From Chloroflexota bacterium (GTDB lineage Bacteria > Chloroflexota > Anaerolineae > B4-G1 > DUEL01): a stretch of DNA of 64,000 nt. Location of the stretch: assembly GCA_014874475.1 (NCBI GenBank), contig JADBJJ010000012.1, positions 1 to 64,000 on the forward strand. The letters are read 5' to 3'. Positions 33,340-41,850 of this stretch are shown piece after piece. The notes beneath the pieces are model-generated. The model was not told the DNA's origin. It saw only the letters and a list, made by a program, of their open reading frames with translations, and did no database searches. The position numbers were made by a program, and so were the translations under genes. Positions within the stretch are counted from its first letter, which is position 1, and the number at the start of each line of letters is the position of its first letter.

Positions 33340-33612
33340 ATGGGTGAGCGGAAGGGGTTGGGATGGCGGGAGGGGGTGTTTCTGGCGGAGGCGGCTGCGC
33401 AGGTTGGCTGCCTGACGGTCGTGGTCATCCTGCTGGCACTGGGTGCAGGCCTTTGGCTAGATAGCCGTCTGGGGACGAAACCCTGGTTCACCCTGGGGCT
33501 GGTACTGGCAAGCATCCCGGTCAGCCTCTATCTGGTGGTTCGGTTGGCCCTCTCTGCGGCCCGGCGGGCCTATCCGCCTGAGGAGCGAGGGGACGAAGGG
33601 GCGGAAGAGTAA
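33340..33612 (+). CDS. atpZ: AtpI/AtpZ-type ATP synthase accessory protein
   Basis: A 90-residue protein with two membrane helices (about 22-43 and 48-68) joined by GLWLDSRLGTKPWFTLG, the pattern of the ATPase gene 1 (AtpZ/AtpI) family. Members help ion uptake or c-ring assembly of the F0 sector. It is the first gene of the F0 operon, 44 bp before atpB. GGGGGGGTGAGG before the ATG could serve as the ribosome site. Confidence 0.85.
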   Translation: MGERKGLGWREGVFLAEAAAQVGCLTVVVILLALGAGLWLDSRLGTKPWFTLGLVLASIPVSLYLVVRLALSAARRAYPPEERGDEGAEE

Positions 33613-33656
33613 AAAATCTGCGATCATCTGCATCCGCCCATTTTCCGGAGGTGGAG

Positions 33657-34592
33657 ATGAAGCGAGTAGGCACGGTTCTGGCGATTATTGTTCTGATTGG
33701 GTTGTGTGCGTTTTCGTGCGTCATCGGCCCGCTGGGAAATAAATGGGTTGTGCAGCCACATATTCAGATGGCAGCGGAGACCTTCCCGGTGGGACCGGTA
33801 CGGGTGCCGAACACGCTGCTGGGCCTGCTCATCGCCGACCTGGTACTCATCGGCCTCTTTCTGGCCGGTACCCGACATATCCGCGCCGGACGCCCCGAGG
33901 CGATGGTGCCGCGAGGGCTGCAGAACCTGGTGGAGGCCGTCTACGAATTCCTTTCCAACTTCCTGCGCGGCATCCTGGGTGAGCGGGCGGAGAAGATGCT
34001 CCCACTGCTCGTCACCTTCTTTCTGTTCATCCTGGTCGCCAACTGGATTGAACTCTTTCCGGGCTTTGACACCGTCGGCCTGATAGAGCATGTCTACAAA
34101 GGGGAAGGGCATGCGGTCCGGCAGGTGGGGCCGCTTCTCCTTTTGACCCACGAGAAAGGGGAGTACACGCTGGTCCCCTTCCTGCGGGCAGCCAACACAG
34201 ACCTGAACGTCCCGCTGGCGCTGGCGCTCATTTCGGTCTTTATGACCCAGGTCTACGGCGTGCAGGCGCTGGGATGGGGATACTTTCTCCGCTTCATCAA
34301 CATCAAAGCGCTGACCAGCGGCGGCCTGATGGGGGTAATGAACTTCCTGGTGGGTCTGCTGGAGATGCTAAGCGAGTTCACCAAGATTATTTCCTTCGGC
34401 TTCCGGTTGTTTGGCAATATTTTTGCTGGGATGGTCCTGTTGCTGGTCATCTCGTCTCTGGTGCCCTTCGTGGCTCCGGTGGCCTTCTACATCCTGGAGT
34501 TATTTGTGGGCGCGGTCCAGGCGCTGGTCTTTATGATGCTGACAGCGGCTTTCACAGCCGTGGCAACTGCGGGCCACGGAGAGCAACACTAA
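33657..34592 (+). CDS. atpB: ATP synthase F0 subunit a
   Basis: Subunit a forms the proton half-channels facing the c-ring. The essential Arg lies in LSEFTKIISFGFRLFGNIFAG (about residue 255), and the preceding NWIELFPGFDTVG and the last-helix region are typical. The N-terminus has an extra hydrophobic segment and FPVGPVRVPNTLLGLLIADL. The 311-residue length is at the long end because of a loop around GLIEHVYKGEGHAVRQVG. ATG 33657 has GGAGG five bases upstream. Confidence 0.94.
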   Translation: MKRVGTVLAIIVLIGLCAFSCVIGPLGNKWVVQPHIQMAAETFPVGPVRVPNTLLGLLIADLVLIGLFLAGTRHIRAGRPEAMVPRGLQNLVEAVYEFLSNFLRGILGERAEKMLPLLVTFFLFILVANWIELFPGFDTVGLIEHVYKGEGHAVRQVGPLLLLTHEKGEYTLVPFLRAANTDLNVPLALALISVFMTQVYGVQALGWGYFLRFINIKALTSGGLMGVMNFLVGLLEMLSEFTKIISFGFRLFGNIFAGMVLLLVISSLVPFVAPVAFYILELFVGAVQALVFMMLTAAFTAVATAGHGEQH

Positions 34593-34599
34593 TTCAGCA

Positions 34600-34897
<298 letters not shown>

Positions 34898-34910: not shown

Positions 34911-35654
34911 ATGGAAGGTCTGGGAATTAATCCCTGGATGCTGCTGGCTCAGATTGTCTCGTTTCTCCTGCTGCTCTTCATCTTGAACGCCGTCGGGTAT
35001 AAGCCCATCCAGCGCATTCTGCAGGAGCGACAGGCGCGCATCCAGAAGGGGATGGAAGAGGCGCGAGCGGCGGAGGAGGCGCGGGACCGAATAGAGGCGG
35101 AGCGGGAGAAAATCCTGGCTCAGGCCCGCGCAGAAGCGGAAGGGCTGATCGCTGAGGCCCAACGGAGGGCTCAGGAGGAGCGGGAGAAACTCCTGGCCCA
35201 GGCGCGGGAGGAGGCAGAACGGATCCGCACGACAGTCCACCAGGAGGCGGAGGCGGAACGGGCACAACTGCTGGGCCAGATGCGAGAGCAGATCGTCGCG
35301 TTGGCGATGGCGGCGGCCCACAAATTGGTGGGCGAGGCGCTGGATGAGCAACGTCAGCGCGCGCTGGTGGCGGAATTCTTCAGCGGGGTGCGTGCAGGCC
35401 GGGTGGAGATTCTGCCCGAGGGGATGGAGCCCGCCGAGGGGCCGGTGGTGGTCACCACCGCGGTCCCGCTGACGGAGGCGGAGGCCGCCGTCGTACGGCG
35501 CGAACTGGCCGCGCGGCTGGGCGAAGAACCCGAGGTCGCCTTCCAGGTGGACCCAGCCGTGCTGGGTGGGCTGGTGGTCCGCATCGGCGACCGGATTGTG
35601 GATGCCAGTTTCGCCGGGCAACTGGAGCAGATCCGTCGTGCTCTGATGGAATAA
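34911..35654 (+). CDS. atpF: ATP synthase b subunit fused to C-terminal delta domain
   Basis: Residues 1-30 form the membrane helix of subunit b (WMLLAQIVSFLLLLFILNAV) and 31-145 a long charged coiled coil ending AAAHKLVGEALDEQRQRAL. The rest (about 160-247) matches the C-terminal part of subunit delta/OSCP: VVTTAVPLTEAEAAVVRREL, then FQVDPAVLGGLVVRIGDRIV and a final helix. The N-terminal six-helix bundle of delta, which normally grips the tips of the alpha subunits, is missing, and no separate atpH is in the window. Mycobacterial b-delta fusions keep that bundle, so this architecture differs. It is the last F0 gene and is followed by a strong terminator. Confidence 0.85.
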   Translation: MEGLGINPWMLLAQIVSFLLLLFILNAVGYKPIQRILQERQARIQKGMEEARAAEEARDRIEAEREKILAQARAEAEGLIAEAQRRAQEEREKLLAQAREEAERIRTTVHQEAEAERAQLLGQMREQIVALAMAAAHKLVGEALDEQRQRALVAEFFSGVRAGRVEILPEGMEPAEGPVVVTTAVPLTEAEAAVVRRELAARLGEEPEVAFQVDPAVLGGLVVRIGDRIVDASFAGQLEQIRRALME

Positions 35655-37227: not shown

Positions 37228-37656
37228 TTAGGGGTTTTCCTCGGTGGGACGGCGAAGACGATGACGATGGGTAACCCGCAGTCGCAGTTGGGCCTTCCGT
37301 AGAGCCATCATCGCCTCAGCCCGTAACTCCGGCGGCGGCTCCTTCTTGAGGAGTTCCTCCGCCTCCTGACGGGCTCGTTCCGCCTGCTCAGCATCCACCT
37401 CATCGGCCCGCTCCCCTACGTCGGCCAGCACGATCACCCGGTCCGGAAGGACCTGGATGAAGCCGCCATAAATGACAAAAGAGAGTTCTTCCTCCCCCCG
37501 CCGCGCAAGCAGTTCCCCCATCGTCAGGGTGGACATCAGAGGCGCGTGGTGAGGCAGAATGCCCAGTTGCCCTTCTGCCCCGGGGGCCAAAACCGAATCC
37601 ACTTCGCCACTGAAAAGTTGTCTCTCAGGTGTTACCACTTCCAATCGGAAGCCCAT
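37228..37656 (-). CDS. atpC: ATP synthase F1 subunit epsilon
   Basis: Epsilon sits in the central stalk and can inhibit ATP hydrolysis. The N-terminal beta sandwich shows RLEVVTPERQLFSGEVDSVL, GAEGQLGILPHHAPLM and IYGGFIQVLPDRVIVLAD. The C-terminal helices contain EQAERARQEAEELLKKE and a basic end RVTHRHRLRR. The start at 37656 (MGFRLEV) has GTGGAGAAG in front; the longer frame to 37722 is unlikely. It is the fourth F1 gene, after atpD. Confidence 0.93.
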   Translation of the reverse strand: MGFRLEVVTPERQLFSGEVDSVLAPGAEGQLGILPHHAPLMSTLTMGELLARRGEEELSFVIYGGFIQVLPDRVIVLADVGERADEVDAEQAERARQEAEELLKKEPPPELRAEAMMALRKAQLRLRVTHRHRLRRPTEENP

Positions 37657-37724
37657 ATGTCTTCTCCACTTGGTGCAGAAAAAGGTGGGTTGGGGAGACG
37701 GCAGTGAAGCCGCCGCCCTCAAAC

Positions 37725-39246
<1,522 letters not shown>

Positions 39247-39250
<4 letters not shown>

Positions 39251-40155
39251 CCGGTTTCCTGCAGTTGCCGCAGGGCCTCGGCGCCGCCGGCGATATCCAG
39301 CAACTCTTTGGTGATGGCGTGCTGGCGGGCCTTGTTGCGGATGATGGTCAGGTCCCGGATGAGTTCTTCGGCGTTGTCGGTGGCGTTGCGCATCGCCGCC
39401 CGACGGGCCGCATGCTCGCTGGCTGCCGCCTCCAGCGCCGTCTGGTAGACCTGCAATTCAGTGAAGCGGGGCAGGACGACATCCAGCAGCGCTTCCGGCG
39501 ACGGCTCATAAATGTAATCCGCCACCCCTGCAGGTCGCATATCCACCACGTACTCACAAACGACCTGGTCCTCCAGACATGTGGGCCGCAGCGGCAGCAG
39601 CCGCTTCACCACCGGCCGTTGGCGAAGTAGATTAATGAAGTCGGTGTAGGCCAGAAAGACCGCATCCACTTGACCAGAAAGGAACTCATCCATTGCCAAT
39701 CGGGCAATGGCGGTAACATCCGGAAGGCGGGGGACAGCGGGCAGGCCGGAGAAGTGAGCGATCAGCGGCGCGCGCAGCCGCCAGAGGATGTTTCGCCCTC
39801 GCTTGCCCACTGCAACATAGCGCACCGGCACACCCAGCAACCGGGCATAGTCGGTGGCTGCGCGGACCACGTTGTGATTGTAGGCGCCGCAGAGTCCCCG
39901 GTCGCTGGAGAAGACGATGATGAGGGCCGAACGGACCGGCTCCCGGATGGTCAGAAGCGGGTGCAGGGGGATGCCCCGCACGGTGGAGAGATTGACGATG
40001 ACCTCCCAGGCCCGATGGGCGTAGTAGCGGGTCGCCAGGACTGCCGCCTGGGCCTTCTGCACCTTAGAGGCAGAGATGGCCTCCATTGCGCGGGTCATCT
40101 GGGCCAGGTTCTGGACGCTGCGGATACGTCGGCGGATTTCCCTCAGAGTTTCCAT
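39247..40155 (-). CDS. atpG: ATP synthase F1 subunit gamma
   Basis: Gamma is the rotating shaft. The N-terminal helix ETLREIRRRIRSVQNLAQMT and AMEAISASKVQKAQ, the SSDRGLCGAYNHNVVR strand and the C-terminal AMRNATDNAEELIRDLTIIR-like helix are characteristic. The length is 302 residues. It lies 42 bp after atpA on the same strand. Confidence 0.95.
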
Positions 40156-40197: not shown

Positions 40198-41850
40198 CTA
40201 TCTCAGCCATTGCTGGTTAAACTCTTCCAGCGCGGCCTTCAGGGCCTCCTCAGTCTGAGGGGTGATGACCTTGCGGGCGGCGATATCTGCTCCCACCTCC
40301 GGGTGCATCGTCCGCATAAAGTTCAGGAACGCGCGCTCGTACTCCCGGACTCTCGCCACCGGCACGCGGTCCAGGTAGCCCTTGGTGCCCGCGTAGATGA
40401 TCATCACCTGCTCTTCCAGCGGGACCGGCTCGTACTGGGGTTGCTTGAGGATTTCCGTCAGGCGACGGCCCCGATCCAGTTTCCGCTGGGTGGCCTCGTC
40501 CAGTTCTGAGCCCAACTGGGCGAAGGCCGCCAGTTCCTGGTAACTGGCCATATCCAGCCGCAGGCCGCCCGCGACCTGCTTCATAGCCTTCGTCTGGGCG
40601 TCGCCGCCGACACGGGAGACGGAAATGCCCACGTTGATCGCGGGGCGGACGCCCGCATTGAAGAGGTCCGTCTCCAGATAAATCTGCCCGTCGGTGATGG
40701 AGATGACGTTGGTGGGGATGTAGGCGGTGACGTCGCCCAGCAAGGTCTCCACGATGGGGAGCGCGGTCAAACTGCCGCCGGTTCCGGGGACTTTGCGGAT
40801 TTCGTAACCGTCGCCCAGTTCCTTCAGCCGTTCTTCCGCCCGCTCCCAGCCCAGCGGGCCGACGTAGACCTGACCGTCCACCCCCTCCCGGACGTCCGCC
40901 GGAGCGTCCTTCGGGGCAATGATATAGTGGTTGGCCAGACGGGCCGCGCGCTCCAGCAAGCGGGAGTGGAGATAGAAGATGTCGCCGGGATAGGCCTCCC
41001 GGCCCGGCGGACGGCGCAGGAGCAGACTGACCTGGCGGTAGGCCCAGGCGTGCTTGGAAAGATCGTCGTAGACGACCAGGGCGTCCTTCCCGCTCTCCAT
41101 AAACTCCTCGCCCATCGCGCAGCCTGCATACGGGGCAATGTACTGAAGCGCCGCAGGCTCCGAGGCAGAGGCCACCACAACAATGGTATGCTCCATCGCG
41201 CCGTACCGCTCCAGCGTCGCCACAACCTGGCGAATCTGGGCCCGCTTTTGCCCGATAGCGACGTAGATGCAGTAGAGGTCTTTCCCTTTCTGATTGATGA
41301 TGGTATCTATAGCGATGGCGGTCTTGCCCGTCTGCCGGTCGCCGATGATGAGTTCCCGCTGGCCCCGACCGATGGGGATCATAGCGTCTATCGCCTTGAT
41401 GCCGGTCTGGACCGGGGTATCCACGTTCTGACGCCTGACAACGCCCGGCGCAATGCGCTCAATAGGGCGGTACCGGTCGGTGCGGATGGGGCCTTTGCCG
41501 TCCACGGGGCGGCCCAGTGCATCCACGACGCGGCCCAGCAGGGCCTCCCCCACCGGCACGGAGACGATGCGCCCGGTGCGGCGGACCAGGTCGCCTTCCC
41601 GGATGCCGGTATAATCGCCCATAATGATAATGCCGACGTTGTCCACTTCCAGGTTGAAGGCCATTCCCATAGTGCCGTCCGGGAAGGTGACCAATTCGCT
41701 CATCTGGACGGTGGAAAGTCCGGAGACGCGGGCGATGCCGTCCCCGACCTCCACAACGGTGCCGACATCTTCGGTGACGACGACAGGCTGGAATTGCTGC
41801 AGGCGCTCCAGCAGGGTAGTGGCGATGGATTCCATTGAGTTCGTGGTCAT
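40198..41850 (-). CDS. atpA: ATP synthase F1 subunit alpha
   Basis: Alpha is the non-catalytic nucleotide-binding subunit. Walker A is in [20 protein letters not shown] (about residue 172). The family segments [45 protein letters not shown] and the VDGQVY region are present. The length is 550 residues. The start at 41850 follows AGAGGAGAGGTGAG; the longer frame to 41871 contains that site and is unlikely. First gene of atpA-G-D-C-mreB. Its N-terminus, usually bound by the delta bundle, is present although that bundle is missing from the b-delta fusion. Confidence 0.97.

Follow-up and report, generated by a model that had tools for sequence, protein, structure and literature searches.

The window, by which we mean the whole 64,000-nucleotide stretch of DNA that was analysed, carries the genes of an F1Fo ATP synthase in two operons that lie on opposite strands and converge, with the gene orders I-a-c-b and alpha-gamma-beta-epsilon, respectively. 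The Fo operon, on the forward strand, begins with an AtpI-like small membrane protein (33340–33612; PF09527 ATPase_gene1, E 5.7e-11) and continues with subunit a (33651–34592, 313 aa; PF00119, E 2.8e-42), subunit c (34661–34897, 78 aa; PF00137, E 6.9e-18) and, as its last gene, the unusual b subunit considered here (34911–35654, 247 aa). The F1 operon, on the reverse strand, starts with subunit alpha (40198–41850, about 550 aa; TIGR00962, 787 bits, cut-off 484), followed by gamma (39247–40155; TIGR01146, 275 bits, cut-off 194), beta (37725–39122; TIGR01039, 761 bits, cut-off 463) and epsilon (37228–37722; TIGR01216, 113 bits, cut-off 67), the true start of which is probably internal to the listed open reading frame. 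Subunits a and c also exceed the cut-offs of their F-type models (TIGR01131 and TIGR01260), and neither operon contains any gene besides those named. Inspection by eye located the catalytic motifs, the essential glutamate of c and the stator arginine region of a, while the Na+ ligand signature, also sought by eye, was absent from subunit c.

Immediately 5' of the Fo operon lie two NuoM/NuoN-like genes for proton-channel subunits of NADH-quinone oxidoreductase (PF00361; 30291–33224, +). Between the converging operons there are an open reading frame for a 72-aa Flp/Fap pilin-like protein (PF04964; 35794–36012, +) and, about 50 bp behind atpC, an mreB gene (PF06723; 36169–37179, -).

A b subunit that ends in the C-terminal domain of delta

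The last gene of the Fo operon has an ATG start preceded by an AGGAGG site, and its product consists of three parts. The b part (34911–35393) carries the membrane helix and coiled coil, and the ATP-synt_B domain (PF00430) covers residues 11–140 (E 1.6e-24). The delta/OSCP C-terminal domain (CTD) occupies residues 179–247 (35445–35651), of which residues 179–245 match positions 105–172 of the 172-position OSCP profile (PF00213, E 1.3e-18); the first 104 profile positions, corresponding to the N-terminal domain (NTD), have no counterpart in the 247-aa protein. Between the two lies a linker of residues 162–178 (35394–35444), at the place that the delta NTD would occupy.

An AlphaFold prediction of the chain, based on 24 homologues and with a mean pLDDT of 82.6, yields a single helix over residues 8–142, a short helix at 146–161, coil at 162–178, and then the elements E179–183, H189–203, E209–213, E221–225, E228–231 and H234–246, giving the order E-H-E-E-E-H for the CTD. 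The best Foldseek matches of the predicted chain are mycobacterial b-delta and OSCP/delta chains. The Pfam domains and the predicted fold thus bear out the first-pass annotation, which had described a b subunit fused to the C-terminal part of delta, and no bundle is predicted within residues 100–165, where it considered that one might have been overlooked; a helical bundle hidden between b and the CTD is ruled out by the prediction together with the NTD profile described below. A tblastn search of GTDB genomes confirmed 516 relatives, and the best 80 of these 516 match nearly the whole query; because so many relatives exist, a chance origin of the fusion can be excluded.

The source genome is a draft of 3.0 Mb in 32 contigs and is 97.7% complete. 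Its sole PF00213 match is the b-deltaCTD gene, and it contains one ATP-synt_B match, one subunit a and one F-type alpha/beta pair together with one more distant ATPase. For a more sensitive view of the missing part, a class-specific delta-NTD profile was built from 16 full-length deltas; it recovered all six of the in-class full-delta genomes lying outside the profile (79–106 bits), gave no match in a genome of another class (G334), and is insensitive to very divergent NTDs. With this profile, no delta NTD was found in the source genome at E<=10. The earlier observations that the six-helix NTD is absent and that the window has no separate atpH therefore extend to the genome as a whole, in which neither PF00213 nor the NTD profile located a separate atpH or an NTD-only gene, and a complete delta, with NTD and CTD, is not encoded in the genome searched. 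Judged from its genes, the enzyme is an F-type ATP synthase with a reduced delta and not a canonical one.

An unrelated protein encoded elsewhere could in principle fill the place of the NTD and, since such a substitute need not be homologous, a sequence search could miss it. However, the two operons offer no extra gene and the NTD profile lacks a match in the genome, and we consider this explanation improbable.

Delta architectures and their history in the Anaerolineae

Of 199 genomes surveyed in the class, 187 gave an OSCP match. Full-length deltas account for 86 of these (94–143 bits) and weaker matches, to the CTD only or with a spurious extension into b, for the remaining 101, such that about half of the 199 genomes carry the delta CTD alone, either as part of b or as an independent protein of about 80 aa. 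In the order to which the source genome belongs, all matches that exceed the cut-off are confined to the CTD, none extending into the NTD. The architecture that was suggested for checking in other Chloroflexota is, accordingly, widespread in the class, and the NTD-less delta is a lineage trait.

Reading of the open reading frames at more than 100 loci revealed four architectures. The first is a full delta in a canonical operon, and the second a separate CTD-only delta, of 81–86 aa at L042–L045 and with longer N-terminal tails at L047–L051. In the third, which includes the source genome, a b-deltaCTD fusion belongs to an F-type enzyme with its Fo genes (I-a-c-b) placed apart from alpha-gamma-beta-epsilon; and in the fourth the fusion lies in N-type loci, ordered beta-epsilon-..-a-c-b-alpha-gamma. 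All seed full deltas score above 83 bits with the NTD profile and three additional full deltas, taken from other parts of the phylum, score 22–60 bits, whereas NTD-profile matches are absent from the other three architectures, save for a broken gene (L052) and chance-level matches at L006 and L050. Detachment of the Fo genes from the F1 genes was seen in all fused F-type loci that could be read far enough, and 16 fused F-type genomes carry, like the source genome, a single b gene each. Carriers of the fusion include the cultured Longilinea arvoryzae KOME-1 (L167), metagenome-assembled genomes under the names Anaerolinea, Brevefilum and Thermanaerothrix, and a record titled 'Candidatus Thermoflexus japonica'.

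The survey also uncovered several unusual arrangements. Genome G073 has two Fo operons (L028 and L029), with a, c and b-delta 91%, 99% and 85% identical, respectively, and a single alpha gene was found there. In G060, gamma is fused in frame to a delta CTD (L077:8710–9924, -; PF00231 at residues 25–302 and PF00213 at residues 331–400), which places a stator domain on a rotor subunit, and a complete delta gene adjoins it. N-type ATPase loci occur in several genomes of the source genome's order (L006, L010, L015, L016, L018 and L019); G210 and G211 carry an N-type locus together with a fused F-type enzyme, and G202 and G230 carry two N-type loci each.

N-ATPases, the alternate F1Fo enzymes, are already known to carry a b-deltaCTD fusion (TIGR03321; PMC11738941), as is also seen at the N-ATPase loci L198–L202, and the source enzyme resembles them in having a b of about 250 aa fused to the delta CTD and no separate atpH. 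Moreover, TIGR03321 aligns with the b-deltaCTD protein over its whole length. Nevertheless, that alignment reaches 95 bits where the cut-off is 224.7, compared with 213–283 bits in N-ATPases of other phyla and in G290, and TIGR03305 (609 bits, cut-off 752) and TIGR03324 (623 bits, cut-off 750.5) also fall short, while all F1 subunits score better with ordinary F models. The N-type gene order beta-epsilon-X-X-a-c-b-alpha-gamma is not present, and in the N-types the N-terminus of alpha has diverged. Trees of alpha plus beta, and of alpha, beta and gamma, separate N-types from F-types (support 100) and place the source enzyme inside the Chloroflexota F-types, outside the N clade. For the F1 genes, an N-ATPase assignment is ruled out by scores, gene order and tree, and we regard it as very improbable that the locus is an N-ATPase; the enzyme is, moreover, the only F-type ATP synthase of the cell.

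Whether the fusion itself has a common source is a separate question. A clade uniting the F1 of fused F-types and N-types is rejected when F-types of E. coli, Clostridia and Sphingomonas are added (p 0.014) but not when these other-phyla sequences are left out (p 0.06–0.40), and the tree of the short b-deltaCTD region favours a common clade with the N-ATPases (p 0.86). A single fusion event shared with N-ATPases is thus rejected by the F1 trees with outgroups but not by the short b-delta tree, and the b-delta gene may have been exchanged between fused F-type and N-type enzymes.

Within the F-types, a single clade of all NTD-less enzymes is rejected by the AU test on the F1 trees (p 6e-5 and 2e-4), and therefore the NTD was lost repeatedly. 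The fused F-type lineages taken as one clade are compatible with the F1 trees (p 0.38–0.46), and in the tree of b plus deltaCTD they form one clade (support 98), beside which G116 is placed with modest support (83). G116 (L045) has a split operon with an 81-aa CTD-only delta starting 14 nt behind the b stop codon, an arrangement that is plausible as the step before fusion. By what we consider the likely route, the Fo operon would have parted from the F1 operon, delta would then have been trimmed to its CTD directly behind b, and finally the CTD-only delta would have become fused to b.

Holding F1 without the delta NTD

Solved structures show the delta NTD on the axis of F1, where it binds two of the alpha N-termini; the remaining one is held close to b and the delta CTD (PMC8617483, PMC12229609). 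Thus b, b' and the last delta helix together hold alpha1 in Mycobacterium smegmatis (PMC8617483), in Bacillus PS3 one alpha is bound to the C-terminal region of delta (PMC12229609), and the E. coli stalk makes three different interfaces, one per alpha (PMC5214741).

We consider it likely that the stalk subunit of this cell's only F-type ATP synthase has lost the delta NTD, that the delta CTD now serves as the C-terminal domain of b, and that F1 is gripped through contacts between alpha, b and the delta CTD. The stalk would be a (b-deltaCTD) homodimer, with two CTDs expected because the b gene is single, in contrast to one CTD in stalks of known structure. The covalent joint between b and the CTD would replace the usual non-covalent b-delta joint, the alpha N-terminal helix would, by analogy, pack on the C-terminal region of b and the delta CTD, and the position on the F1 axis normally held by the NTD would stay vacant.

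The evidence for this grip comes from alpha, which retains its N-terminal helix (41776–41850, -). Relative to the alpha core, identity of this helix is 0.51 in full-delta enzymes, 0.52 in fused F-types, 0.61 in those with a separate CTD and 0.32 in N-types; loss of the helix together with the NTD was considered and is seen only in the N-types and not in the F-type lineages. Since alpha N-termini without a partner should decay, and the helix has not decayed, the alpha-b-deltaCTD contact is the probable grip. The first-pass annotation had argued that F1 must be held by the stalk in some other manner, and this stands in so far as the NTD contacts are gone; the alpha/b/deltaCTD contact of the standard kind, however, is probably kept, so that the NTD contacts alone would be missing.

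An insert of about 50 aa occurs in alpha just before the motif GGSLTALP (40780–40932 of the window, -). Considered as a compensating anchor, it shows no simple link to NTD loss; although present in most fused lineages, it is absent from six of those sampled, namely G048, G074, G129, G198, G200 and G205, and it also occurs in G125, a full-delta genome.

Comparison with other enzymes places the reduction in context. Like the F-type enzymes of E. coli and Bacillus PS3 (b2 plus delta), the source enzyme has ordinary a, c, b, alpha, beta, gamma and epsilon subunits and an alpha N-terminal helix, but it lacks the delta NTD, carries the CTD covalently on b and is encoded in split Fo and F1 operons. 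Mycobacterial b-delta (7JG5, 7NJK) likewise joins b and delta in one chain, of 445–448 aa, but retains a complete delta and a duplicated linking domain and has a b' partner (PMC8617483), whereas the 247-aa chain has neither bundle nor NTD, there is no b' and b is encoded once; the contrast drawn earlier with Mycobacterium was therefore correct. The engineered PS3 deltaDeltaN-alpha FoF1 (9JC1) and the Acidaminococcus deltaCTD-alpha fusion are also NTD-less with the CTD covalently attached to a neighbour, although that neighbour is alpha rather than b. Natural deltaCTD-alpha fusions have been noted (PMC12229609), Acidaminococcus being cited by Ueno et al. 2025, and the designers of the PS3 deletion, who were concerned that deltaDeltaN might by itself fail to hold F1, fused it to alpha (PMC12229609). 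The solved enzyme from the same phylum, that of Chloroflexus aurantiacus (9ITJ series), provides the nearest solved a and b, but it has two stalks, and its delta is a protein of its own (157 aa) whose N-terminal part is shortened.

How many stalks such an enzyme would carry admits two readings, which may be set beside this grip. One possibility, which we find conceivable though less likely than not, is that of a single stalk using both of its CTDs, such that (b-deltaCTD)2 places one on each of two neighbouring alpha N-termini and the second CTD does the work of the lost NTD. The single b gene in the source genome and in the 16 other fused F-type genomes implies two CTDs if the stalk is dimeric, and M. 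smegmatis, where two similar delta domains bind two alpha N-termini, provides a precedent. On the other hand, the linker of about 17 residues may not reach a second alpha, and a doubled CTD is not required in lineages where the CTD is a separate protein.

The other reading extends the preferred explanation. Freed of the NTD, F1 would keep its pseudo-threefold symmetry and could be joined by two or three (b-deltaCTD)2 stalks, with one a subunit per stalk, which would provide more protons per ATP and permit synthesis at low proton-motive force; we take this to be conceivable, while leaning somewhat against it. Absence of the NTD is the structural precondition, and the precedent comes from PS3 FoF1, in which removal of the delta NTD and tying of the CTD to alpha yielded up to three stalks and a subunits with an H+/ATP ratio of 5.8, the NTD limiting the number of stalks to one (Ueno et al. 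2025). In the fused F-type loci, uncoupling of the Fo and F1 operons would permit an excess of Fo, and G073 has two Fo operons for one alpha. The C. aurantiacus enzyme contains four b, two a and two delta subunits per entry (18 entries together comprise 72 b and 36 a chains, and six comprise 12 delta chains), and among solved structures its a is, by a wide margin, the nearest relative of the source a (E 5e-45). Paired stalks and two a subunits are reportedly described in its structure paper. Nevertheless, C. aurantiacus keeps a shortened NTD region, its CTD starting at residue 83 of 157, so that its two stalks arise otherwise; furthermore, the CTD in the source enzyme is tied to b and not to alpha, and stoichiometry is not readable from sequence.

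Significance of a natural NTD-less ATP synthase

The b-deltaCTD architecture is not unique, given the N-ATPase fusion and the natural deltaCTD-alpha fusions already known. In the open-access literature we found neither an account of b-deltaCTD in Anaerolineae F-type enzymes nor one of recurrent loss of the delta NTD; absence of the F1 delta from the Chloroflexi genome RBG-9 was remarked on in passing in 2013, with no explanation (PMC3971608).

Many free-living bacteria, including the cultured L. arvoryzae, naturally lack the NTD in their one F-type ATP synthase, and the loss is recurrent. By the usual view, the stator cannot grip F1 without the delta NTD. These natural enzymes allow one to test how far delta can be reduced while F1 is still held, and whether ATP synthases with several stalks and a high H+/ATP ratio exist as an adaptation to low energy, for which the NTD-less Anaerolineae are, by their gene content, candidates. 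That a large part of the Anaerolineae in fact uses natural multi-stalk ATP synthases, arising through NTD loss and b-deltaCTD fusion, with a higher H+/ATP ratio and growth at low proton-motive force, is a possibility that we consider on balance doubtful; if true, they would constitute a natural, b-linked counterpart of the engineered PS3 multi-stalk enzyme.
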